Source: Marinoscillum pacificum
GTDB lineage: Bacteria > Bacteroidota > Bacteroidia > Cytophagales > Cyclobacteriaceae
Length of the DNA: 64,000 nucleotides
Assembly: GCF_024714495.1 (NCBI RefSeq)
Contig: NZ_JAMZMJ010000001.1
Coordinates: forward strand, 1,054,001-1,118,000
Direction: 5' to 3'
In this document: piece after piece, positions 4,413 to 18,563 of the stretch
Layout of the letters: each line of letters starts with the position of its first letter
Numbering within the stretch: the stretch's first letter is position 1
Notes under the pieces: model-generated
Databases searched by the model: none
What the model was told of the DNA's origin: nothing
The model's input: only the letters and a program-made list of their open reading frames with translations
Position numbers and translations under genes: made by a program

Positions 4413-4415
4413 ATA

Positions 4416-4439
4416 AAGAGGTCTCAATTGAGGCCTCTT
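4416..4439. terminator. Bidirectional terminator between convergent genes
   Basis: AAGAGGTCTC (4416-4425), loop AATT, GAGGCCTCTT (4430-4439), with one G-T pair. It lies in the 27-base gap between convergent ftsE and the DUF4097-like gene and could serve both strands. Confidence 0.7.
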
Positions 4440-5982: not shown

Positions 5983-6529
5983 ATTTAACCTCCTTCTCTA
6001 ATAATTGTCGAAGCTTGTCTTTACCACGTTTAAACTGACTTTTAGAAGTGGATTCCGTAATTCCCAAAATGTCTGAAATCTCTTTATGATCATATCCTTC
6101 AAACAAATAAAGGGAAACCACACTTCTAAACCCTTTCGGTAGTTCTAAGACGGCCGCTTTCACGCGCTCAACTGTCAATCCTGATACTGATTCAAAGCCG
6201 TCATCATACTTTTCCACATCCTCTACTTCCTCCATCATCAGCGCCTCCTTTTCACTTCTCCTCAAACTAGTAATCGCCTTGTTAATTACTATTCGCTTAA
6301 GCCAGGCTCCAAAAGTGGAGTCTTCGCGATAGGAAGCAATGTTTCGAAACGCACTCAGAAATGCCTCCTGTAAGACATCCTCAGCTTCCTCTTGCACTGC
6401 ACATATTCTCAAAGCCGTATTATACATCGCTTTGCTGTACAATTGATAGATCTCATACTGTGCCACCTGATCCCCATTTCGGCATCTTTCGATTAACCCA
6501 GCATGTATATTTATCGTTTGGCTATTCAA
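5975..6529 (-). CDS. ECF RNA polymerase sigma factor
   Basis: 184 residues with sigma region 2 (YQLYSKAMYNTALRIC... EDVLQEAFLSAF... FGAWLKRIVINKAI, about 25-90) and region 4 (VVSLYLFEGYDHKEIS, SQFKRGKDKLRQLL, about 135-180), the two-domain layout of extracytoplasmic-function sigma factors. First gene of the operon with the anti-sigma-like and DUF4097-like genes. A GCAACC box upstream on the same strand suggests autoregulation. Distinct from the FecI-type sigma factor at 8.3 kb. Confidence 0.88.
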   Translation of the reverse strand: MNSQTINIHAGLIERCRNGDQVAQYEIYQLYSKAMYNTALRICAVQEEAEDVLQEAFLSAFRNIASYREDSTFGAWLKRIVINKAITSLRRSEKEALMMEEVEDVEKYDDGFESVSGLTVERVKAAVLELPKGFRSVVSLYLFEGYDHKEISDILGITESTSKSQFKRGKDKLRQLLEKEVKYG

Positions 6530-6554
6530 GGCTTAAAAGTCAAAATTCACATCA

Positions 6555-6582
6555 ATGACTCAAGCAAATTAATAAGGTTGCA
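6555..6582 (-). promoter_or_regulatory. Possible ECF-type promoter of the sigma operon
   Basis: On the minus strand TGCAACC (6576-6582) is followed about 16 bases later by AGTCA (6556-6560). Bacteroidota ECF operons often carry GCAACC-like -35 and GTC-containing -10 boxes. Based on pattern only. Confidence 0.35.
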
Positions 6583-6620
6583 TGTGCCATGAAAAATTTC
6601 TTATACACTAAGTTTACTTT

Positions 6621-7250
6621 ATGAAAAAACTCATTTTGTGGCTTTTCTTGAGCACTGCCTTTACACTTGCATATGGCCAGGAGGTTGCTTTGGACTCAGT
6701 TACAATCCAACCACATGATTCATTATTAGTAGAGAAAGATCCTTTAATCAAATTTGAATCCGGTGTTTTTCTCGAGACAGGATTTCAAATGATTCCTATC
6801 AAAACCAATTACGGCCCAACCTCTCAGTTGTTTATTGGATTGCAATACAAAAATCTTTTTGGTGGCTTTGGAGTTTACAATTATCAGGGTGACTATCAAA
6901 CCACAGTCATTTTCCCCAACAATTTCAACCTGGCATATAAATATGGTGCCGCTAGACTAGGATTGAGAGCCTACGATTCTAAGTATTTTGAAATCAATGC
7001 TCAAATTCAATATGGTAAAGGAGACGCTGTTTGGATCAGAGAATCAAACGATGAAAAATTCATACGCAGCAAATTTGACATTATTGAACCTCAAGTAATG
7101 GTTTTATACACCCCAATTGAACAAGTAAAGCTATTTACAACGTTAGGCTATAAGAGCATGCAAAATTTAGACATTGTGCATCTCAGCAATAAAGATTTTA
7201 GTGGTATCACCTTTGGATTTGGAATCAGATGCGGTATTTATCAGCAGTAA
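6621..7250 (+). CDS. Outer-membrane beta-barrel protein, first gene of the sigma/FecR operon
   Basis: 209 residues with a Sec signal peptide (MKKLILWLFLSTAFTLAYG) and alternating strands rich in Tyr, Phe and Gly (FIGLQYKNLFGGFGVYNYQG, YKYGAARLGLRAY). It looks like an eight- to ten-stranded barrel. The next ORF starts 22 bases before this one ends, so the two are probably translationally coupled. No specific family identified; the position suggests a part in the surface-signalling system that follows. Confidence 0.6.
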   Translation: MKKLILWLFLSTAFTLAYGQEVALDSVTIQPHDSLLVEKDPLIKFESGVFLETGFQMIPIKTNYGPTSQLFIGLQYKNLFGGFGVYNYQGDYQTTVIFPNNFNLAYKYGAARLGLRAYDSKYFEINAQIQYGKGDAVWIRESNDEKFIRSKFDIIEPQVMVLYTPIEQVKLFTTLGYKSMQNLDIVHLSNKDFSGITFGFGIRCGIYQQ

Positions 7251-8341
7251 TTTTACTCATTACACTTTGCACTTCATGCTATGTAAGTGAAGAACTTCCA
7301 GCCGATCAAAGAGCCTGGGAATATGACTTCCCATCAAATGTAGGTTTGAACAATTCTGCATTATACACTTTGGACAATCAAATCGACAGCAGAAATTACG
7401 CTGAGATTAATGGATTAATCATCATCAAAGATGACAAACTAGTTTTTGAGAACTATTACAATGGCCATACTCGCTCTTCCTTACACCCAGTTGGTCGTGC
7501 GACCACAGGAGTTGCTGCTTTGGTGCTTGGACTTATGATTGAACAAGGTCTTATTGCCAACCTTGACATCCCGATTTCAAACTATTTACCTGAATATCAA
7601 AATATTTTTGACACTAATCCGTCTAAGAAAAATATCACCTTTAGACACCTGCTTAGCAACCAAATGGGGGTTTCATGGAACGAGTATACAGTAAATACGG
7701 AGCGCGCTGAAAGTGACTTTTATCAAATGAAGTTACAAAGTGACTGGGCAGCATATGTATTATCACAAAACCAAGAAGCTCCTCCAGGATTAAGACTCGT
7801 TCTTAACAGCGGATCCAGCATGCTGCTTTCTAAAATTTTCGAAAGCATTCTGATTGATATCACATTAGAGGAATTTATAGATCAGGAAGTTTTCAAGCCT
7901 CTAAATATCGTTAATTATGAATGGAGCTATGACCCATCTGGAACTTTAGACCTCTGTACAGGATTATCTATCTCAACCCTTGATTTTACCAGATTAGGAT
8001 ATTTGATGCTAAACGAAGGCAGATGGACCGACAAGAGAAGAGTTATTAATAGAGATTGGATTCTTGATTGCACAATAGCACAAACTCCATTTCTTGAAGA
8101 TTTGGATTTTGGGTATTTCTGGTGGGTATTTTCTGATCAATTCAACTCGATATATACGAATAACAATGAAGCATTCTGGATTACGGGTTATAGAGGAGAA
8201 AGTATTTATGTTGTGCCAGAGGAAAAATTGGTTATTACGGTAATGGCTAATAATCCCTACAGCAATATCGTGTACAATCAATCCATGAATGTATACTTAA
8301 AAATAATTGACGCCCTTAACTTCAGTGAACAAGATTCATGA
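7229..8341 (+). CDS. Serine hydrolase (class C beta-lactamase fold) homologue lacking catalytic residues; lipoprotein
   Basis: 370 residues with a lipoprotein-like signal (MRYLSAVILLITLCTSC, possible lipid Cys at 17). The fold is that of beta-lactamase/DD-peptidase family S12: LVFENYYNGH, GLIANLDIPISNYLPEYQ, ITFRHLLSNQMG, FKPLNIVNYEWSYDPSG, DFTRLGYLMLNEGRW, GYRGESIYVVP. The active site is gone. Where SxxK should stand there is R90-A-T-T93, and the YxN tyrosine is replaced by L192 in VLNSGSS. The rest is well kept, so a binding or sensing role seems likelier than decay. It overlaps the barrel gene by 22 bases, and its stop overlaps the sigma start (ATGA). Confidence 0.75.
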   Translation: MRYLSAVILLITLCTSCYVSEELPADQRAWEYDFPSNVGLNNSALYTLDNQIDSRNYAEINGLIIIKDDKLVFENYYNGHTRSSLHPVGRATTGVAALVLGLMIEQGLIANLDIPISNYLPEYQNIFDTNPSKKNITFRHLLSNQMGVSWNEYTVNTERAESDFYQMKLQSDWAAYVLSQNQEAPPGLRLVLNSGSSMLLSKIFESILIDITLEEFIDQEVFKPLNIVNYEWSYDPSGTLDLCTGLSISTLDFTRLGYLMLNEGRWTDKRRVINRDWILDCTIAQTPFLEDLDFGYFWWVFSDQFNSIYTNNNEAFWITGYRGESIYVVPEEKLVITVMANNPYSNIVYNQSMNVYLKIIDALNFSEQDS

Positions 8342-8898
8342 AACAAGATGATGACAATGCTCTTTTCTTGAAGGTGCGTGAGGGTGACCTATCCTCCTAT
8401 GAGAAAATATTCAAGACGCATTATGGCGCTATGTCCAGATATGCGATGAGCATTGTCAGAGATCAGACGATTGGTGAAGAAATAGCTCAGGAAGTACTCA
8501 TGTACATTTGGGAGAAAAGAGCTCAAATCAATTTGACTGGGTCCTTAAAATCTTACCTTTTTTCATCTGTCAAAAACAAATGCATTAATTACATCAAACT
8601 TGAATTACCCAAGCTCCAGTCCACAACAGATCTGGATCAGGTAAGAGCTTATTCATCTACTGGGATGACAATTGATGATACCGAATTAATGAAGAAGAAA
8701 ATCCAATTCGCAATTGACCAACTTCCAGAAAAATGCAAAAATATTTTCATCCTTAGTCGATACGGAGGATTGACCTACAATGAAATTGCCGAAGAGCTTG
8801 AAATCTCCGTTAAAACAGTAGAAAACCAGGTAAGTATTGCTCTGAAAAAACTAAAAGAAAGTCTGAGTGAAGAACTAAAAGAGTATCGAATAAAATAA
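8338..8898 (+). CDS. ECF sigma factor, FecI-like
   Basis: 186 residues with region 2 (YEKIFKTHYGAMSRYAMSIV... IGEEIAQEVLMYIWEKR) and region 4 (QLPEKCKNIFILSRYGGLTYNEIAEELEISVKTVENQVSIALKKLKESL), matching the Bacteroidota FecI-type sigma-70 family 1. ATG overlaps the stop of the preceding gene (ATGA), implying coupled translation. FecR follows after 51 bases that contain a probable sigma-dependent promoter. It would drive its own fecR-TonB-DUF4249 genes when the TonB receptor senses its ligand. Confidence 0.9.
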   Translation: MKQDDDNALFLKVREGDLSSYEKIFKTHYGAMSRYAMSIVRDQTIGEEIAQEVLMYIWEKRAQINLTGSLKSYLFSSVKNKCINYIKLELPKLQSTTDLDQVRAYSSTGMTIDDTELMKKKIQFAIDQLPEKCKNIFILSRYGGLTYNEIAEELEISVKTVENQVSIALKKLKESLSEELKEYRIK

Positions 8899-8914
8899 TT
8901 TTATAACGATATTA

Positions 8915-8940
8915 GGGGTATCCAAAATAATGATTGCCTT
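8915..8940 (+). promoter_or_regulatory. Probable ECF-sigma-dependent promoter before fecR
   Basis: GGGGTA (8915-8920), 13 bases, TTGCCTT (8934-8940), then ATG of fecR at 8950. The same boxes with the same spacing and the same distance to an ATG recur at 13337-13362 and at no other place I could find in the window. The layout implies a very short or absent 5' untranslated region. Confidence 0.6.
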
Positions 8941-8949
8941 TTAAACGAC

Positions 8950-9834
8950 ATGACCTCAAAATGGTTTGACAAATATTGCCAAAAACACTACTCAGAGAGT
9001 AAAAAAACCTCAGATGATGAGGAGTTTGAGCTATTCTATGAGCTAAGTGAGTATGATGCTCCGGTTGACACAATTGCTGCATGGGCCAAGGTTTGTAATA
9101 AAATACAGCCAACAAAAAACTCCTTCTGGAGTCTTTGGAAAGTGGCTGCCGCAATAATTCTCATATCTTCATTAAGTGTCATTGGATATTTAAAATATTC
9201 ACCAACAGATATTGCTCAAAGAGAGCTGGCTTCTAAGGATGCTATCTCCAAATATGAGCTTCCTGATGGAACAAGATTGACACTAAGCAGAAATTCATCT
9301 GTCGCTCTCACAGAAGAGGACTTTTTAGGTGAAAGAAATCTACAATTAGAAGGAAAGGCTTATTTTAATGTAACTAAAGGGAGTCCATTTACTATCTCCA
9401 CTAAAAATGGTGATGTAAAAGTGTTAGGTACAAGTTTTGATGTGGATGCTCGAGATGGTCAATTAATCGTTAAAGTATATTCAGGTATAGTCCAAATCTC
9501 AAAAGGTGACAATTCCACAAAACTTCATAAAGGTGAAATTGGCATTATTGACAACACAGAATTAACAGTCTCGAATAATACAAATGTAAACAGTCAGTCG
9601 TGGAGGACGGGTGATTTTAAGTTTGACAACCAACCCCTAAAAGAAATCATTCCTCAACTAGAAGAATTCTACAATGTAGATATTAAGACTTCCAAAGCTA
9701 TTAGAGAATGTAGAGTAACTGCAGAGTTTGATGGGGACTCACTAGCTGAAGTTATCAAAACACTGACTTCTGTCCTTAACATCAAGTCTAAGAAATCAGG
9801 CAATAAGATTTCCCTTTCAGGGAAAGGTTGCTAA
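8950..9834 (+). CDS. FecR-family anti-sigma/sensor protein
   Basis: 294 residues. A cytoplasmic N-terminus (to about 60), one membrane segment at about 60-80 (WSLWKVAAAIILISSLSVIGY), the FecR domain (YELPDGTRLTLSRNSSVAL... LEGKAYFNVTKGSPFTI... VKVLGTSFDVDA, about 95-200) and a C-terminal DUF4974/STN-like domain (FKFDNQPLKEIIPQLEEFYNVDI, about 220-290). It should hold the FecI-type sigma encoded upstream and relay the periplasmic signal from the STN domain of the TonB receptor downstream. The product ends SLSGKGC. TonB receptor gene follows after about 60 bases. Confidence 0.9.
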   Translation: MTSKWFDKYCQKHYSESKKTSDDEEFELFYELSEYDAPVDTIAAWAKVCNKIQPTKNSFWSLWKVAAAIILISSLSVIGYLKYSPTDIAQRELASKDAISKYELPDGTRLTLSRNSSVALTEEDFLGERNLQLEGKAYFNVTKGSPFTISTKNGDVKVLGTSFDVDARDGQLIVKVYSGIVQISKGDNSTKLHKGEIGIIDNTELTVSNNTNVNSQSWRTGDFKFDNQPLKEIIPQLEEFYNVDIKTSKAIRECRVTAEFDGDSLAEVIKTLTSVLNIKSKKSGNKISLSGKGC

Positions 9835-9863
9835 TAACACCATATTTTTACTTCAAGAACCAA

Positions 9864-9884
9864 ACGAATTTCCACTAAATTCGT
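9864..9884 (+). promoter_or_regulatory. Hairpin just upstream of the TonB receptor start
   Basis: ACGAATTT (9864-9871), spacer CCACT, AAATTCGT (9877-9884): a perfect 8-bp inverted repeat ending 10 bases before the ATG at 9895. It is not followed by a T-run, so it is not a typical terminator. It may shape translation initiation or be chance in AT-rich DNA. Confidence 0.4.
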
Positions 9885-9894
9885 GAAGTGATTG

Positions 9895-12480
9895 ATGCCG
9901 GCTAAACTAAGAAGGATACTTTTAGTAATTCTAATGGTTATCTCAAGCACCATTGGACATGCACAATCCACATCTATACATGTGGAACCAGGCACATATT
10001 CCCTGAACCAAATACTCAAAATATTAAAAAAAGAAGGCATTCAGCTAGCCTATAGTAGTGATCGTCTCCCCGACCTTACATTTTCCCTGCGTCAGGAATA
10101 CAATGAGGTCCACAAGCTATTTGAGCAATTGAGCAAAGAAAGTGATCTACGTATTACTTTCAGAGGGAGTCAATACTTAATTACCTATCCAACTGGCGAA
10201 AACCTATCTATTAGAGGAGCCATATCAGATGCCACCTCAGGGGAGGTGCTTATTGGAGCTGCAGTATATGCAATGAACCTTGAATCGGGTGTCACTAGTA
10301 ATAATTATGGATATTACTCACTTCAGTTACCAAAAGGAAAACATGTTCTGCGAACAAACTACATTGGTTATGAAACCCGAATAGATACGATTGATATCAC
10401 CGATAGAAACCAGGTACGAAATATATCTTTAATACCGAAGACTGAAGTATTAAATGAGGTAATTGTATCTGCTTATGAGCCGGACTTAAATATAGAGAGC
10501 ACCATCCCTGGTGTCAACACGATTAACCTGAATACCAGAGGTCAAATTCCTTATTTCCTAGGAGAAGTCGATGTATTACAAGGAGCAACTCTGCTACCAG
10601 GAATCAACACACTAGGAGAAGATGCAAATGGTCTGAGCGTGCGTGGAGGCAATGTAGATCAAAACCTTATACTTCTGGATGAATCCACTATTTATAACCC
10701 AAACCACTTATATGGTTTGATTTCTATTTTCAATCCAGAGGCAGTTAATAAAATCGAAATCATGAAGGGATTCATCCCAGCATCTTATGGAGGTAGATCC
10801 TCTTCTGTGATGACCATCCACCAAAAGGAAGGAGATTATGATTCCTATCACATCACTGGTGGTATTGGAATAGTTTCGGCTAGATTAATTGCTGAAGGAC
10901 CAATCAAAAAAGACGTCAGCTCATTTATTATATCTTCCAGACAATCCTTATTTGACCTGACACTTGATGCTAATTCCACGAATTATTTTCAGGATTTCAA
11001 TGCTAAAACCAATTGGAAGATCAACCCGAAAAACACCTTCTATTTATCAGGATATCTTGGAAATGACCGTAGCACCAATGTTTTTGAGACGGACCGGATA
11101 TGGGGTAATCGAAATTTATCAATGAGATGGAATCACCTATTTGGCCAACGAGTATTTGCCAATTTTTCTGCCATTTATAGTCAGTATGATTATCGAATCA
11201 CTCAACCCAGAGAGGCGGCGAGTTTCATCGGACAATCCAACATCATTGACTACACCATCAAAACAGACTGGGGGTTTGTACTCAATAATCATAATGAGTT
11301 TAACTTCGGAGGCAGCACTTCTCTGCACCGACTAATCCCTGGATCGCGAGTGCCCTATGATGAAAACTCATCTGCTGATACGGTCATTTTAAACAAAGAA
11401 TACGGTTTAGAACAAGCAATATACCTATCTCATAAGGCTAATTATGATAAAGTAAAGATTGAATATGGGTTAAGAGTCTCCTCTCTATTTAATGTTGGAC
11501 CAGCAGATGTATACATCTATGAGGATGGAAACCCGCGAGCAGATGAAAATATTGTTGATACGATAACCTACGAACCCTACAAGTTGGCCCACTCCTATTA
11601 TGGTTTTGAGCCACGAGCATCCTTTGTCTATCAGTGGGCCAAAAACGTTAGCACTAAATTGAGTTTTACCAGGACTTATCAGTATTTGCATCTGATATCC
11701 AACACGGTAACTCCTACTCCTACGGATATATGGAAACTGAGTGATCAACACATTAAGCCTACAGAGTCCAATCATTACTCATTAGGCTTGTTTTACAATT
11801 TTGATGATAATAATTATGAAGCTTTTGTAGACGGTTATTATAAAACACTCAGCAATCTTGTAGAATATAAAAATGGAGCTGACTTACTGTTTAATGAAAA
11901 CCCCGAAACAGAATTGGTCAGTGGAGACGGCAGAAACTATGGTATCGAATTTTTCTTAAAAAAGAATAAAGGAAAACTGACAGGTTGGACCAGTTATACA
12001 CTCTCTCGCAGTGAGTTGCGGGTAGATGACCCATTCGAATCCATCAATAATGGACAGTTTTTCCCATCCAATTTTGACCGTAAACATGATATTTCAGTTG
12101 TTGGAGTTTATGAACTTACTAAAAGGCTCTTTACTTCCGTTTCCTTCAATTACAATTCAGGACGACCATATACCCGGCCTGTTGGAAAATATACTTATGA
12201 AGACATTCAGGTACCAAGATTTGAAAATCGAAATCAAGGCCGTTTACCCGCTTACCATCGAATGGATTTATCCATCAAATGGCACACAAAAAACATAAAA
12301 CCAGATGGTACCCCAAAAAGATTCAATGACTATTGGACTGTAAACATTTACAACGTTTACGGTAAAAAGAATGTCTATTCGTATGTATTTGAGGAAAATG
12401 AAGATGGTGAAACACAAGTAACCCCTTACACTGTAATAGATACCATTATTCCATCATTAAGCTATCATTTCAAGTTTTGA
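9895..12480 (+). CDS. TonB-dependent outer-membrane receptor with STN signalling domain
   Basis: About 861 residues. A signal peptide (to about residue 24), an STN domain (about 25-95: YSLNQILKILKKEGIQLAYSS), a carboxypeptidase-like CarbD_reg domain (about 103-185: SGEVLIGAAVYAMNLESG), a plug (about 215-325: LGEDANGLSVRGGNVDQNLILLDE) and a 22-strand-type barrel ending in SYHFKF with a terminal aromatic. The STN domain identifies it as a transducer that signals to FecR. The ligand is unknown; pairing with DUF4249 is common in Bacteroidota. ATG at 9895 is chosen over a TTG three bases earlier. The DUF4249 gene overlaps its end. Confidence 0.9.
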   Translation: MPAKLRRILLVILMVISSTIGHAQSTSIHVEPGTYSLNQILKILKKEGIQLAYSSDRLPDLTFSLRQEYNEVHKLFEQLSKESDLRITFRGSQYLITYPTGENLSIRGAISDATSGEVLIGAAVYAMNLESGVTSNNYGYYSLQLPKGKHVLRTNYIGYETRIDTIDITDRNQVRNISLIPKTEVLNEVIVSAYEPDLNIESTIPGVNTINLNTRGQIPYFLGEVDVLQGATLLPGINTLGEDANGLSVRGGNVDQNLILLDESTIYNPNHLYGLISIFNPEAVNKIEIMKGFIPASYGGRSSSVMTIHQKEGDYDSYHITGGIGIVSARLIAEGPIKKDVSSFIISSRQSLFDLTLDANSTNYFQDFNAKTNWKINPKNTFYLSGYLGNDRSTNVFETDRIWGNRNLSMRWNHLFGQRVFANFSAIYSQYDYRITQPREAASFIGQSNIIDYTIKTDWGFVLNNHNEFNFGGSTSLHRLIPGSRVPYDENSSADTVILNKEYGLEQAIYLSHKANYDKVKIEYGLRVSSLFNVGPADVYIYEDGNPRADENIVDTITYEPYKLAHSYYGFEPRASFVYQWAKNVSTKLSFTRTYQYLHLISNTVTPTPTDIWKLSDQHIKPTESNHYSLGLFYNFDDNNYEAFVDGYYKTLSNLVEYKNGADLLFNENPETELVSGDGRNYGIEFFLKKNKGKLTGWTSYTLSRSELRVDDPFESINNGQFFPSNFDRKHDISVVGVYELTKRLFTSVSFNYNSGRPYTRPVGKYTYEDIQVPRFENRNQGRLPAYHRMDLSIKWHTKNIKPDGTPKRFNDYWTVNIYNVYGKKNVYSYVFEENEDGETQVTPYTVIDTIIPSLSYHFKF

Positions 12481-13319
12481 GGAATCTTTATTGCTATATC
12501 GTGCTTGTATTACTGTTATGGTCTTGTCAAGACAACAACCTTGAACTTGATGACCAGGAACAACAAGTGGTTATTGAAGGTTGGTTATCTGATCTGGATA
12601 CCATTCAATTTATTAAAATTAGTTTGTCTCAAAATTTCCTTGACAACTCTGGAAAATCCTATATCGAAGATGCAGGGGTAAAAATCCGAAGTAGTAATGG
12701 AGTCACAATTGACCTAATTCATTCCTCTAATGGGCTTTATAGCACTCAATCCACTTACTCTGGACAGGAAGGAATAAACTACTTTCTTGAAGTAAGACTG
12801 TCCGATGGTAGAATCATTCAATCTAGCACCCAGAAAATGGCTAGTGCTCCCTCACTGGACACGATTAACTTCGAATACTATGAGCGAGAATCTGCAACCA
12901 ATGAAAACATCATAGAGCAAGTATTCTACCCAATCACCCAGATAAACGACAATGGTGAAGAAGAGAATTATTACCGGTTCAAAGTGTATAAAAACGATAC
13001 TTTATTCAAAGAGAGTGAAAATATCCTATTGATCAATGACAAATTTTTCAATGGAAACTCCCCTTTCATTGAAAACGAATTCACAAGTTTTGAATTTTTT
13101 GAAAGCGATTCTATAGGACTCGAACTCCAGGAAATAACCTCTACTGGCTATAATTACTTACGGAATTTAAAAAATCAAACCACATCCTTAGGGTCCACCT
13201 CATTCATCACACCTGGGCCAATCAATGGCAATATGTTTTATCTAAATTCAGATGAAAAGGTCCTTGGTTATTGGGGCACCTGCTCCATCCAGACTAACGG
13301 TATAAAAATTATTCAATAA
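12477..13319 (+). CDS. DUF4249 family lipoprotein
   Basis: 280 residues, lipoprotein signal with VLLLWSC (lipid Cys at about 17). The body (QQVVIEGWLSDLDTIQFIKISLSQNF, IEDAGVKIRSSNG, INYFLEVRLSDGRIIQSSTQKM, LGYWGTC) follows the DUF4249 pattern of a beta-rich surface-exposed partner of TonB receptors. It begins with TTG overlapping the receptor stop (TTGA), implying coupled translation. It may act like a SusD-type ligand-capture lipoprotein, but that is inference. Last gene of the overlapping operon. Confidence 0.8.
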   Translation: MRNLYCYIVLVLLLWSCQDNNLELDDQEQQVVIEGWLSDLDTIQFIKISLSQNFLDNSGKSYIEDAGVKIRSSNGVTIDLIHSSNGLYSTQSTYSGQEGINYFLEVRLSDGRIIQSSTQKMASAPSLDTINFEYYERESATNENIIEQVFYPITQINDNGEEENYYRFKVYKNDTLFKESENILLINDKFFNGNSPFIENEFTSFEFFESDSIGLELQEITSTGYNYLRNLKNQTTSLGSTSFITPGPINGNMFYLNSDEKVLGYWGTCSIQTNGIKIIQ

Positions 13320-13336
13320 AATTTCAATTTCTTTTG

Positions 13337-13362
13337 GGGGTACATCAGCGATTAGTTGCCTT
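13337..13362 (+). promoter_or_regulatory. Second copy of the probable ECF-sigma promoter
   Basis: GGGGTA (13337-13342), 13 bases, TTGCCTT (13356-13362), ATG at 13372. Box sequence, spacer length and distance to ATG (16 bases from the first T) are identical to the copy before fecR, while the spacer sequence differs, as expected for a functional promoter rather than a duplicated block. Confidence 0.6.
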
Positions 13363-13371
13363 ACTGGTGAT

Positions 13372-13482
13372 ATGTTCAAAAAATTAGCCGTTTTAATGAT
13401 CACAATGCTTTTTGCCACGGTAGGCATGAAAGCTGCAAAAAGAGCCAAAACAGGCTCTAATGAAGAATTCATTTATTACTGA
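13372..13482 (+). CDS. Tiny exported or membrane peptide in the sigma regulon
   Basis: A 36-residue ORF: MFKKLAVLMITMLFATVGMK then AAKRAKTGSNEEFIYY. The N-terminus has the Lys-Lys start and hydrophobic core of a signal peptide. ATG is placed exactly like fecR's relative to the GGGGTA-N13-TTGCCTT promoter, which is the best evidence for expression. It overlaps the next ORF (13460) in the +1 frame by 23 bases, so the two may be one gene broken by a frameshift or two coupled ORFs. No family recognised. Confidence 0.5.
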   Translation: MFKKLAVLMITMLFATVGMKAAKRAKTGSNEEFIYY

Positions 13483-13675
13483 AATTGAGATGATGGTGAA
13501 TAGAGAAAACAAAATATCTAAAGGTTTAGACAAGCTAATCAAAAGCAAGAGAAGCAACCATTTCCCGAATAGTCAGGACATTTTCGTAGGTGACCCTGCA
13601 GTTAGATCAAATTATTTTGATGCTTTCTACCAGGCTCAGCTAACCGAAATCGCTTATTCAGAGGCAAAGTTCTAA
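13460..13675 (+). CDS. Small hypothetical protein after the 36-residue peptide
   Basis: 71 residues, soluble, charged at first (MKNSFITEIEMMVNRENKIS) with a C-terminal stretch of SQDIFVGDPAVRSNYFDAF. It begins inside the previous ORF, +1 frame, and ends 2 bases before the convergent hybrid kinase gene. Reading the two ORFs as one would give an exported protein of about 100 residues with a normal signal peptide. No homology recognised. The ATG at 13460 or the pair at 13490/13493 could be the start. Confidence 0.4.
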   Translation: MKNSFITEIEMMVNRENKISKGLDKLIKSKRSNHFPNSQDIFVGDPAVRSNYFDAFYQAQLTEIAYSEAKF

Positions 13676-13677
13676 AA

Positions 13678-16503
13678 CTAAGCCTCTTTAAGCACATCCG
13701 TTGGCTTCATGCCAAACTTCTTCTCATACTGCTTACTAAAGGCTGTCACATTTTTCAATCCTATGCTCTTGGCGGCCTCTGTAGCATTTTTCACCTTATT
13801 CTTTCTGATGAGATAGTCAGCGTATTTCATTCTGATCTCCGCAACATACTCGAATGGCGTCATTCCAGTTAATTTCTTAACTAATCGATAAACCTGACGC
13901 TCACTTGCTGCCATAGCACTCGCCAAATCAAATACAGATAAATTTTCATCATCAATTCGGTCCATGATGACTTGATCTAATTTTGATAAAATATCCTTTT
14001 CTACGGCATCCAGACTCGATTTATCAAACAATTTAGAGAAGGTTTCATTTAACTCTGACCCACTATAATTCCTTCTGGAAGCCAATAAATTATTAATCCT
14101 AAGCTTGAGCTCCTTCTTCTGGAATGGCTTCTGTAAGTAATCATTGATTCCTTGATAAAGTACTTTCTCTTGATCTTGTTCTGAGATACGAGCTGAAACA
14201 ACCAAAACTGGAATCTTATTATAGTCATCATTAGCTTTTAGCGCCTCGATAAGCTCGAATCCGTCCATCCATGGCATCATCAAATCTGAGATGATTAAGG
14301 AAATGTCATTGTGCTTCAATAATTCCAATGCTTCGATACCATGGGCAGCTTCCACTATATGATAGTCATCTTCCAGGATCTGACGTATATGATACCTAAT
14401 TTCAGGATGATCGTCCACAATCAATATACTCTCCTTGTCCTCTTCTTGCTTTGGAAGACTAATGCCCGCACTTTCTTCACGATCGATCTCGTCATACAAA
14501 TGCTTTCGCTCAGACACATAACTGAATGTAGAACCGATGTTAGCATCTTCACCCATGGCATTCACCTTCGGGAAGGACATCTTAAAACTTGTCCCTAAAC
14601 CAAGTGTGCTTTCTACAGCGATGGTTCCTCCATGAAGTTCTACCAATTCCTTAACTAGTGCCAAACCAATTCCTAAACCTTCCTTCGTTCGGTACTGATT
14701 ATCTTTTGATTGATAGAAACGATCAAACACATACTCCAAACTCTCTTTAGGAATCCCTTCTCCAGAGTCAATGACATTGAGCAATACAGAGTCTCCATCA
14801 TCATGGGTTTCAATGGTGATTTTATCACCTTTAGATGTATGCCTGATAGCATTTGATACCAGGTTATAGAAGATCTTTTCGAACTGTCTAGGGTCAATAA
14901 ATACAGCAATATGCTCTTTAATATAGTTCTTACAACTAAGCTTAACGCCTTTATATTCGGCAGTACCTACGAACATCTCAGTGAGCATTTCCAAATATTT
15001 CCCAAATCGTACGACCTCTTGCTTAAGGTTAATTTTTCCTTCTTCCAGCTTGGTTAAGTCGTTGATTTCATCCGTTAAGTATAGTAAGTGCTTGCAGTTC
15101 TTATAGCCGGTATCGAGGTTCTTCATCGCGCCAGGAGTCAATACCACGTCTTCATCCTCACGTAGCATTTCCAGGTTGCCAATTATCAGACTTAATGGTG
15201 ATCTAAGGTCATGCGATACATTGGCAAAAAATCGTGATTTAGCAGCATCCAGTTCCTTCAACTTGTTGGATTGTTTCTCAATAACTTCCTTGTCACGTTG
15301 AATTTTATCTTTTTGTCTGGAGATCTTATTGGACAAATTCTTTTTTAACAAATACGCTCGAACAGTTACCCCAATACCGATGATGAACAGTACAATTCCT
15401 AGTACTGTCAAAGTGATGATGATCTTTTGTCGATTGATAATTTCTTGATTTAGCTCAGCCTGTTTGCGTAGAAACTCATTTTCCGCTTCTTGTTGCTCCA
15501 TCTCATACTGGCTCTTCATACGTTCAATTCGACGAATATTCTCTTCACTAAAGAGCTGCTGATTTAATTCACCATACCTAACGTTTGTATTATAAGCCTC
15601 TTCGAACTCGCTACCATTAGCATATATTTTGCTCAGATTTTCAAGAACATTCTTTTCTTCATATCGACTATTTACGTTTCTTGTAATATCAATTGCCTTG
15701 AATGCGTATTGTTTCGCCTTATTTAATTCATTTTTAGCTAGATACAATTCCGACATATTCTTGTAAACCACTGAAAGCATTCTGGGATTTGTATCTGGGT
15801 TAATTCGCTCCGCCAGGCTTAAATGATATCGCTCTGATTGTTTCAAGTTACCTTGCAACATGTAGGTCTCTGCTAGATCAATTTCCGCAGCCAAGGTGCC
15901 ATACTCATCCCCTAGCTCCCCTCTTATATCAATAGCCTGCTTGTAGTAGAGTTCTGCCTGACCGTATTCTGAAATTCCTTTGTATGATCGTCCAAGATTC
16001 AGAAAACAATAGCCTACCATTCGATTATCAGCTAAAGATTGCGCTTGATCCAATGCCTGTATAAAGTACTTAATTGCACCTTGAAAATTCGTTTGGTATA
16101 AATAAAGGTTACCGAGATTAATTAATGAATATCCACGCTGTTCACCGTTTTCACGTTCTTCAGCTAACTTCAATGCCTCCAGATACTTCTCGAAGGCTTT
16201 CGAAAAATTGCTTAAATTTCTATACGCTACTCCGATGTAATTGATAGACTGAATTTCATCATCTAAAAAGCCATTTTCCCTGGAAATTCTCAAGGCTCTA
16301 TTCGCAAAAAATAGTGAAGAGTCGGGTCTCACATCTCTATATTCCCATGCCAGAGCATTATTGATTGCTACTCGTTGTTTTAAATCACTTTCAGACAAAC
16401 GTCTCAGCTCCAGATGCAGACTGTCGACTACTTGATTTTCTTCTGCATAAGCTGAACTTATGGCAAATATGGAAAAGACAAGTGCAAAAATGCGTATGTA
16501 CAT
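13678..16503 (-). CDS. Hybrid two-component regulator: TPR sensor, histidine kinase, receiver, AraC-type HTH
   Basis: 941 residues. Signal peptide (1-20), a periplasmic TPR array (about 45-335; units such as SLINLGNLYLYQTNFQGAIKYF), a membrane segment (about 360-385), a coiled coil, HisKA with H431 in FFANVSHDLRSPLSL, an HATPase domain (N551, DSGEGIP, GLGIGLALVKEL; about 540-645), a receiver (about 692-800; D697-D698, phospho-acceptor D740 in ISDLMMP, K792) and an AraC HTH (about 845-941). One protein therefore carries sensing, phosphorelay and DNA binding, as in Bacteroidota HTCS, but with TPRs replacing the beta-propeller sensor. It ends 2 bases from the convergent small ORF. The signal sensed is unknown. 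Confidence 0.93.
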   Translation of the reverse strand: MYIRIFALVFSIFAISSAYAEENQVVDSLHLELRRLSESDLKQRVAINNALAWEYRDVRPDSSLFFANRALRISRENGFLDDEIQSINYIGVAYRNLSNFSKAFEKYLEALKLAEERENGEQRGYSLINLGNLYLYQTNFQGAIKYFIQALDQAQSLADNRMVGYCFLNLGRSYKGISEYGQAELYYKQAIDIRGELGDEYGTLAAEIDLAETYMLQGNLKQSERYHLSLAERINPDTNPRMLSVVYKNMSELYLAKNELNKAKQYAFKAIDITRNVNSRYEEKNVLENLSKIYANGSEFEEAYNTNVRYGELNQQLFSEENIRRIERMKSQYEMEQQEAENEFLRKQAELNQEIINRQKIIITLTVLGIVLFIIGIGVTVRAYLLKKNLSNKISRQKDKIQRDKEVIEKQSNKLKELDAAKSRFFANVSHDLRSPLSLIIGNLEMLREDEDVVLTPGAMKNLDTGYKNCKHLLYLTDEINDLTKLEEGKINLKQEVVRFGKYLEMLTEMFVGTAEYKGVKLSCKNYIKEHIAVFIDPRQFEKIFYNLVSNAIRHTSKGDKITIETHDDGDSVLLNVIDSGEGIPKESLEYVFDRFYQSKDNQYRTKEGLGIGLALVKELVELHGGTIAVESTLGLGTSFKMSFPKVNAMGEDANIGSTFSYVSERKHLYDEIDREESAGISLPKQEEDKESILIVDDHPEIRYHIRQILEDDYHIVEAAHGIEALELLKHNDISLIISDLMMPWMDGFELIEALKANDDYNKIPVLVVSARISEQDQEKVLYQGINDYLQKPFQKKELKLRINNLLASRRNYSGSELNETFSKLFDKSSLDAVEKDILSKLDQVIMDRIDDENLSVFDLASAMAASERQVYRLVKKLTGMTPFEYVAEIRMKYADYLIRKNKVKNATEAAKSIGLKNVTAFSKQYEKKFGMKPTDVLKEA

Positions 16504-16604
16504 AGATAGCGTGCTAAGGTTGGGAATTTACTTTTTAAAAGTAATGAAATAGCCTTGATTAGAACCTTTGGTTCCTAATTTTTCTGTCACCACTGTCGAT
16601 TATT

Positions 16605-18563
16605 CTATGTAGCTATTTGAAAGGACTCAAAGAAATCAAGTGACTCAGGGTTTCTCATTGCTCCAAGGTTAGCAGCAAGATTTTTAGGCCTCCCAAGAAG
16701 TATTCGTTTGACTGGCGCTTCCATTTTCTTACCGCTTATTGTGTAAGGAATGTCCTGAATTTCAACCACTTCATCTGGCACATGTCTTTTGGAAAAATCA
16801 TTGGTCAATTGCTCCTGTATTCGCTTTTTAATTTCATCAGACAACTCAAAACCCTCCTCCATCACCACAAACAATGGCATATAGTGCCGTCCACCATCCA
16901 GTTCCAGGTTAACGATCAAACTGTCTTTGATTCCATTTACTTTATCTACAGACTGATAAATTTCCGCAGTACCAATTCGAATTCCGTGACGATTCAATGT
17001 GGCATCAGACCTTCCTTTTATAATCAACGTATTTCGCTCGGTAATCTCCAGCCAATCTCCATGTCTCCAAACAGTTGGGAACATCTCAAAATATGATTCC
17101 GTATATCGTTCTTTGTTTACATCTCCCCAAAAATATATCGGCATAGAAGGCATCGGTATAGTCACCACCATTTCGCCAACGTCACCTATCAATTCATTTC
17201 CTTCATCGTCATAAGAAGCCATCGCACAGCCCAATGCTCGTCGCTGTATCTCTCCTTCATATAATGGTTCTGTTGGACATCCGCCCACAAAAGCAGAACA
17301 CACATCGGTACCTCCACTCATGGAGCACAACCAAATATCGCCTTTTACAAATTTATACACCCAGTCATATCCTTCTGAAGGCAAGGGTGATCCTGTGCTA
17401 CTAATTGAACGCAAACTCGACAAGTCAAAATCCTTTCCAGGAGTAAGCCCCTTATTCATACAAGCCACAATAAATGGAGCACTTGTGCCAAAATGGTTGA
17501 TTTTGAATGTTTCGGTCAAATGCCATAGGGTATTGATATCTGGATATGAGGGACTACCGTCATATAAAACTATCGTAGCTCCCGCCAATAAGGTGGCCTG
17601 AACAAAATTCCACATCATCCACCCTGTAGTGGTATACCAGAAGTAGCGCTCACCTTGCTTGACATCATTGTGAAAAGTCACATATTTCAAATGCTCCAAC
17701 AATACCCCTCCTTGTGAATGGGTAATGGCTTTTGGTTGACCTGTGGTTCCAGAAGAATACAAAACCCAAATAGGATCAGAAAAATCTACCGGTGTAAAAT
17801 GTAAATCCCCTTCAATCTGCATTATTTCCTCCCATACAGAAGCATAATCGACAAATGAGACTCTATGCAATACAGGAATTTGCACCACGGCAGTAACGGA
17901 ATCCAATTCAGCCAGAATTTGATGCACTTCCTCCACTCTATCATGAGCTTTGCCCTGATAATGATAGCCATCTACGGTGATAAGAACTTTTGGAGCAATT
18001 TGTTTAAAGCGATCTACGACACTGCTTGCCCCAAAATCTGGAGAGCAACTTGACCAAACAGCCCCGATAGAACAAGTAGCCAAAAAACCAACTACAGCTT
18101 CTGGGATGTTAGGAATGTAAGCAACTACACGATCTCCTTTTTGTACTCCCTGGCTGAGCAAGTAAGCTTGAAATGAAGCTACCTGCTGACGAAGCGCTTT
18201 CCAACTAATTTCTTTGGCCCCTCCACTTTCGTGTTGGAAAATGATCGCTGGATCTTCAGAATTTGCAAACCTGAACGAGTGCTCAGCATAATTCAACTTA
18301 CTTCCACTAAACCAATTGGTATGTGGCATTGGTAAATCGTCATGAATAATTTCTGGGTCACCATAATCAATTACCTGGAAGTATTCATAAATACTTTTCC
18401 AAAATGCTTTCGTATCATCGCATGACCATTTCCACAACGCATCGTAATCATCAAAAGAAAGGCCATAATTGGTTTTCAACCAGTTGCTATAAGCCGTCAG
18501 GTTGCTGTTGTCTATGAATTGTTGGTCTGGCTGCCACAATACTCTGGGAATTGCTTGGGTCAT
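16605..18563 (-). CDS. aacS: Acetoacetyl-CoA synthetase
   Basis: 652 residues, an adenylate-forming enzyme that activates acetoacetate to acetoacetyl-CoA with ATP. The P-loop YSSGTTGQPK is at 269-278, a GGTDVCSAFVGG segment is typical of AacS, and the catalytic lysine lies in SGKKMEAPVK near residue 612. The N-terminal ACAS-type region (FWKSIYEYFQV, NYAEHSFRF) and total length match AacS/acetoacetate-CoA ligase rather than acetyl-CoA synthetase. ATG at 18563. Its product can be cleaved by the thiolase encoded at 30.8 kb. Confidence 0.93.
   Translation of the reverse strand: MTQAIPRVLWQPDQQFIDNSNLTAYSNWLKTNYGLSFDDYDALWKWSCDDTKAFWKSIYEYFQVIDYGDPEIIHDDLPMPHTNWFSGSKLNYAEHSFRFANSEDPAIIFQHESGGAKEISWKALRQQVASFQAYLLSQGVQKGDRVVAYIPNIPEAVVGFLATCSIGAVWSSCSPDFGASSVVDRFKQIAPKVLITVDGYHYQGKAHDRVEEVHQILAELDSVTAVVQIPVLHRVSFVDYASVWEEIMQIEGDLHFTPVDFSDPIWVLYSSGTTGQPKAITHSQGGVLLEHLKYVTFHNDVKQGERYFWYTTTGWMMWNFVQATLLAGATIVLYDGSPSYPDINTLWHLTETFKINHFGTSAPFIVACMNKGLTPGKDFDLSSLRSISSTGSPLPSEGYDWVYKFVKGDIWLCSMSGGTDVCSAFVGGCPTEPLYEGEIQRRALGCAMASYDDEGNELIGDVGEMVVTIPMPSMPIYFWGDVNKERYTESYFEMFPTVWRHGDWLEITERNTLIIKGRSDATLNRHGIRIGTAEIYQSVDKVNGIKDSLIVNLELDGGRHYMPLFVVMEEGFELSDEIKKRIQEQLTNDFSKRHVPDEVVEIQDIPYTISGKKMEAPVKRILLGRPKNLAANLGAMRNPESLDFFESFQIAT

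Follow-up and report, generated by a model that had tools for sequence, protein, structure and literature searches.

A 64,000-nucleotide stretch of the Marinoscillum pacificum genome (contig NZ_JAMZMJ010000001.1, positions 1,054,001 to 1,118,000 of the forward strand), referred to here as the window, carries two identical copies of a short bipartite element, GGGGTA-N13-TTGCCTT. These boxes are very probably promoters of the FecI-type extracytoplasmic function (ECF) sigma factor encoded just upstream of them, which would drive a transcript of fecR, a TonB-dependent receptor and a DUF4249 protein, as well as a second short transcript encoding two small proteins. Bacteroidota encode many FecI-type sigma factors whose promoters are hard to predict. 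A box kept across genera, tied to one sigma clade and present at an unlinked gene as well offers a promoter that can be tested directly. The two boxes are as follows.

8915..8940, plus strand: box 1 (GGGGTA-N13-TTGCCTT), from which the sigma factor is predicted to transcribe fecR
13337..13362, plus strand: box 2 (GGGGTA-N13-TTGCCTT), from which the sigma factor is predicted to transcribe the small genes

Two identical boxes in the window

An earlier note made from the letters of the window had reported identical boxes at 8915 and 13337 with 13-base spacers, and both the coordinates and the identity were confirmed. At each site the first T of TTGCCTT is 16 bases from the ATG, again as reported, and the first G is 35 bases from it. 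The spacers were described as unrelated, and they agree at 29% of positions when GGGGT is taken as the upstream box and the spacer as 14 bases. Chance expectations for exact matches were computed from the base composition of the window, where two copies of GGGGTA-N13-TTGCCTT are observed and 0.0012 are expected. The genome-wide search that the note had proposed as a check returned three exact copies in the 6.4-megabase genome against ~0.12 expected.

Loosening the pattern gives no excess. With up to three mismatches the window contains 10 matches against a shuffled mean of 12.4, and with up to two mismatches the genome contains 106, where the reversed pattern has 98. What carries the signal is the exact boxes, together with their conservation. 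The Bacteroidota housekeeping promoter is given in PMC7366714 as TAnnTTTG at -7; this element has 48 matches in the window, none of them at 8915-8950 or 13337-13372. An Rfam scan of 6000-17000 returned no matches.

Conservation and geometry

Six genomes of the genus contain 18 exact matches to GGGGT-N14-TTGCCTT against four for the reversed control. Twelve of the 18 are the pair described here, present as two per genome in all six genomes and separated by 4413-4437 base pairs. All 12 sites have identical box letters, which is partly a product of the search, since only exact boxes were looked for. Spacer agreement over the 15 genome pairs is 43% of positions at the fecR site and 32% at the small-gene site, with upstream-flank agreement of 34% and 46%, respectively.

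Across 192 genomes of the family, TTWGGGGT-N14-TTGMCTT has 39 matches against 12 in the control, made up of 12 against none in the genus and 27 against 12 outside it. Thirty of the 39 sites were read, of which eight belong to this cluster type; among the 22 non-cluster sites, 18 lie within open frames of at least 150 codons and four lie outside such frames. The cluster sites of loci L092 and L094 were scored as inside an open reading frame (ORF) since the fecR frame stays open upstream of its ATG. At L038, L040 and L042 neither box falls within the fecR open frame, and coding does not explain them.

An open scan upstream of fecR for GGGGT-N(8-22)-[TG]TG[ACT]C gave a single match in 24 of 25 loci, always with a 14-base spacer. 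The 25th locus, L174, has a box with GTGAC just outside the scanned stretch. The constancy of the spacer rests on this open scan, an earlier fixed-spacer search having given the spacing by construction. Counted from the first G, the first in-frame ATG or GTG comes at 34-36 bases in 20 of the 24 loci and at 26, 47, 49 and 56 bases in the others. The element is built as an ECF promoter is expected to be, with two short boxes at a fixed spacing, a free spacer and a position upstream of a gene start. The 34-36-base distance at fecR would fit a near-leaderless messenger RNA, unlike the geometry of other box-bearing genes, which start 41-58 bases away. Box 2 is present in 11 of the 24 named loci, and Ekhidna-like loci have box 1 only.

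Link to the FecI-type sigma factor

The boxes stand within the following run of genes.

6621..7250, plus strand: 209-amino acid protein with no Pfam match, a barrel-like outer-membrane protein by eye only; order kept in relatives
7229..8341, plus strand: serine hydrolase of the beta-lactamase family (PF00144, 88.5 bits, cut-off 27)
8338..8898, plus strand: FecI-type ECF sigma factor (TIGR02985, 151.8 bits, cut-off 126.4)
8950..9834, plus strand: fecR, 294 amino acids (PF04773, 67.8 bits, cut-off 24; PF16344, 54.2 bits, cut-off 24.4)
9895..12480, plus strand: TonB-dependent receptor, 861 amino acids from the ATG at 9895
12477..13319, plus strand: DUF4249 protein, 280 amino acids (PF14054, 106.4 bits), with a TTG start that overlaps the receptor stop
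13372..13482, plus strand: predicted single-pass membrane microprotein of 36 amino acids, with homologues and purifying selection
13493..13675, plus strand: ORF2, a conserved 60-amino acid protein, with its start placed by alignment with relatives
13678-16503, convergent: 941-amino acid hybrid kinase with an AraC-type end, as read from its sequence

The earlier note held that the same FecI-type sigma factor reads both boxes. The observable part of this stands, as the same box precedes fecR and the small gene and tracks the local FecI-type sigma factor; dependence on that factor is what we infer from the pattern. Identity in sigma region 4 was compared with the presence of the box across 73 FecR loci, from which six duplicate rows were dropped in a count by hand. 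Where region-4 identity is at least 0.60 the box is found at 24 of 25 distinct loci, and below 0.60 at two of 34.

Several observations weigh against this reading. Locus L045 has a close sigma factor and no box, and L125 and L057 have a box with a distant sigma factor. Eight of the 73 loci yielded no sigma factor and so are unclassed. With the sigma gene on one side of box 1 and fecR on the other, the relation between sigma type and box is not independent of common descent, and it counts as an association, not proof. Box 2 is absent after the DUF4249 gene in 13 of the 24 named loci. A signalling domain in the receptor is weakly indicated: among 10 receptor N termini scanned, an STN domain appeared in four (E 0.005-0.063) and FecR_C in five (E 0.0006-0.19), all below the Pfam cut-offs. 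The Plug domain was found in 12 of 12 receptors scanned. Receptor query sequences began at 9898, one codon inside the ORF.

The genome of the window has 20 FecR matches, and only two of these 20 loci, the present one and L125, have GGGGT-N11..17-TTG upstream. L125 (G000:C29) is a FecR paralogue with GGGGTA-N13-TTGTC just before its start, possibly reflecting a second sigma factor of similar specificity.

The box at an unlinked lipoprotein

A less confounded line for the sigma link than the cluster loci comes from a lipocalin-like lipoprotein. G059 and G072 each have the box in front of an unlinked lipoprotein gene; the two products, of 146 and 152 amino acids, respectively, are 41% identical. 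Lipoproteins of this kind, ~150 amino acids long and with the box, occur in three genera (L085 in G059:C21, L220 in G072:C4, and L235-L238). A search for the lipoprotein gave matches in 35 of 192 family genomes and 30 loci were fetched. At the six strongest a box stands 41-56 bases ahead of the match; the 24 weaker loci have none. Two of the six were found via the box; the other four were not, and all come from one genus. Among the genomes of these four, the sigma cluster was seen only in G035. Homologues in G133 and G060 are without the box, and at E 1e-4 none is present in the genome of the window.

The earlier note stated that the two boxes define the regulon, which is too strong given a third exact site in the genome, partly conserved, and the unlinked box-bearing lipoprotein in three other genera. 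The regulon probably extends beyond the two sites of the window.

Small proteins behind box 2

In five of the six genomes of the genus a counterpart of the 36-amino acid protein follows box 2, as also in G032, G103, G060, G072, L163, L164 and L174. A longer counterpart at L167 lies behind a G-rich variant of the box. All homologues have a basic N terminus, a hydrophobic stretch and basic residues, and FIYY is terminal in five genus members. The ratio of non-synonymous to synonymous substitution rates (dN/dS) is 0.06-0.45 over five pairs, indicating purifying selection.

The 36-codon ORF is followed by a conserved gene for a 60-amino acid protein, ORF2 (13493-13675), which was missing from the earlier note. 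Its dN/dS values of 0.05 and 0.08, from two pairs with unsaturated dS, likewise indicate purifying selection. The mechanical call of ORF2 starts at 13460 and relatives align from 13493. The intervening 13460-13492 forms an 11-codon extension that overlaps the 36-codon ORF and is kept by G180 but not by most relatives. A weak structure model of ORF2 has two helices, with a mean predicted local distance difference test score (pLDDT) of 75.6 and a predicted template modelling score (pTM) of 0.41. Its kinship with FecR or sigma factors was considered and rejected at hhalign probabilities of 0.2 and 0.13 percent, respectively.

The two genes do not always occur together. In G133 the microprotein is absent and the 60-amino acid gene is retained behind the box. 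G060 and L164 retain the microprotein with no 60-amino acid gene seen, and in G072 the 60-amino acid frame contains an in-frame stop. A reduced cluster in G041 (L155, 6386-8430) encodes the barrel-like protein, the hydrolase and a homologue of the 60-amino acid protein; the sigma factor, fecR, receptor and DUF4249 genes are missing between them and there is no box. This arrangement hints that the 60-amino acid protein acts with the hydrolase or the barrel. In G200, from another family of the order (L156, G200:C45, 8152-8402), a homologue stands behind TTTTTAGGGGT-N13-TTGTC, with no receptor cluster in the stretch read.

Neither small protein matches a family in Pfam or NCBIfam. One relative of the 36-amino acid protein weakly matches NF001323 (E 0.067) and one of ORF2 weakly matches PF10135 (E 0.12); the best PDB match of ORF2 has E 0.42. 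A search with the 36-amino acid query gave matches in four of 196 family genomes, all in the genus, with the G007 copy missed and located by position. An ORF2 profile matched four of 390 genomes of the order, a sample from which most of the genus was absent. Both families seem to be narrow.

Proposed mechanism

RNA polymerase with the sigma factor of 8338-8898 would read both boxes, with TT(A/G)GGGGT as the -35 element and [TG]TG(A/C/T)C as the -10 element. The sigma factor would be produced from the upstream operon and held or licensed by FecR. By analogy with FecIR, a ligand at the TonB receptor would signal via FecR and yield active sigma factor, which would transcribe fecR, the receptor and the DUF4249 gene as one transcript, and the membrane microprotein and 60-residue protein as another. 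Judging from position, fecR would be sigma-dependent and the sigma gene outside this control. With fecR but not the sigma gene behind a box, activation would raise the sensor and the partner of the sigma factor, leave the sigma gene itself unaffected and thereby limit the response.

Small feedback membrane proteins such as MgrB are short, single-pass and made by the system that they may act on, and a feedback role for the microprotein here is conjecture. It is tentatively proposed that the microprotein and its small helical partner tune the FecR/receptor complex or the hydrolase, and that in other genera the unlinked lipocalin-like lipoprotein takes their place behind the same box in a compact regulon; this is possible, with the odds against it.

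Alternative explanations

The box could instead be the site of an ordinary activator, for example the hybrid kinase/AraC-type regulator at 13678-16503, whose gene adjoins box 2 and has a similar kinase adjacent in seven of 21 relatives' loci scanned. However, the kinase is not adjacent in the other 14 loci (some of whose contigs end early), most of which have the fecR box. Sites of hybrid regulators are described in PMC3878776 as direct repeats, whereas GGGGT and TTGCCTT are unlike each other, and a promoter would agree with the constant 14-base spacing and the constant distance to the start codon. An activator site is very improbable. An ECF promoter read by another sigma factor of the genome, or shared among several, is also improbable, if less so: the 20 FecR matches and the similar box with TTGTC at L125 would allow it, but the box tracks this sigma clade across genera and 18 of the 20 FecR loci of the genome are without it. 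A promoter read by the sigma factor of 8338-8898 is preferred over both.

Two alternatives concern the 36-codon ORF. It may be no working protein but a leader peptide through which translation or elongation into ORF2 is controlled, consistent with its place directly before ORF2, with the FIYY end in five genus members and with the retention of ORF2 without it in G133. Yet it persists without ORF2 in G060 and L164, copies without FIYY retain the hydrophobic part, and its dN/dS values speak for a selected protein; a leader peptide is on balance unlikely, though not outlandish. The earlier note regarded the product as an exported peptide, which would be cleaved to a short form, and the copy in the window does begin with basic residues, followed by a hydrophobic stretch and an alanine-rich end. 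By eye over nine homologues, with no signal-peptide predictor, the hydrophobic stretch is flanked by basic residues and runs into lysine or arginine in the relatives, and neither a cleavage site nor the alanine-rich end is kept. Export is unlikely, and a membrane microprotein is the likelier assignment.

Relation to known systems

The E. coli FecI-FecR-FecA system, as outlined in PMC9249621, has in common with this cluster an ECF sigma factor, FecR and a TonB receptor encoded together and a sigma-dependent promoter of the receptor transcript, predicted in the present case. According to the same outline, FecI reads the fecA promoter, and fecIR is transcribed from a separate housekeeping promoter (PMC9249621). 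In contrast, the box here lies between the sigma gene and fecR, placing fecR inside the predicted regulon and the sigma gene outside it, and a second predicted transcript encodes two small proteins. The box predicts a wiring that places the partner gene but not the sigma gene under control, and adds two uncharacterised small-protein families.

The sigma/anti-sigma loci of Bacteroides likewise have FecI/FecR-like pairs beside TonB-dependent transporters, and the passages of PMC3878776 and PMC11501099 on these loci give no promoter motif. For PUL24 of B. thetaiotaomicron, the same passages place a mapped start within the anti-sigma gene (PMC3878776, PMC11501099). Identifying ECF-controlled promoters is called 'a challenging task' that needs start-site data in PMC3878776, and PMC7366714 states that as of 2020 no ECF factor of B. 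thetaiotaomicron had a known motif. The EcfO motif of B. fragilis, mentioned in the latter, is a Bacteroidota ECF promoter already described, tied to oxidative stress and not to a FecR/receptor pair. The SM6 motif of Flavobacterium psychrophilum, as presented in PMC9723704, is also a Bacteroidota ECF promoter class inferred from sequence and start sites; the boxes here differ from it as GGGGT and TTG(A/C)C. No report of the present box was found in the open literature searched, a scope without preprints and most subscription papers.

Further sites and records

The third exact box of the genome lies at G000:C27:413840-413865 (L003:1501-1526), between a minus-strand gene and a 73-amino acid ORF that is followed by a gene that looks recJ-like by its sequence. 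The site is exact in G180 and has one change per box in G161. When it was used as a query, only the downstream part aligned in G133 and G088, and only short pieces in G007. It is a candidate only. The genome of the window also has one extra match to WGGGGT-N14-TTGMCT, TGGGGT-N14-TTGACT at L076 (G000:C31:81101-81126), with none for the reversed control. A Marinoscillum-type cluster also occurs in a metagenome-assembled record titled Rickettsiales bacterium (L159), a title that looks wrong.
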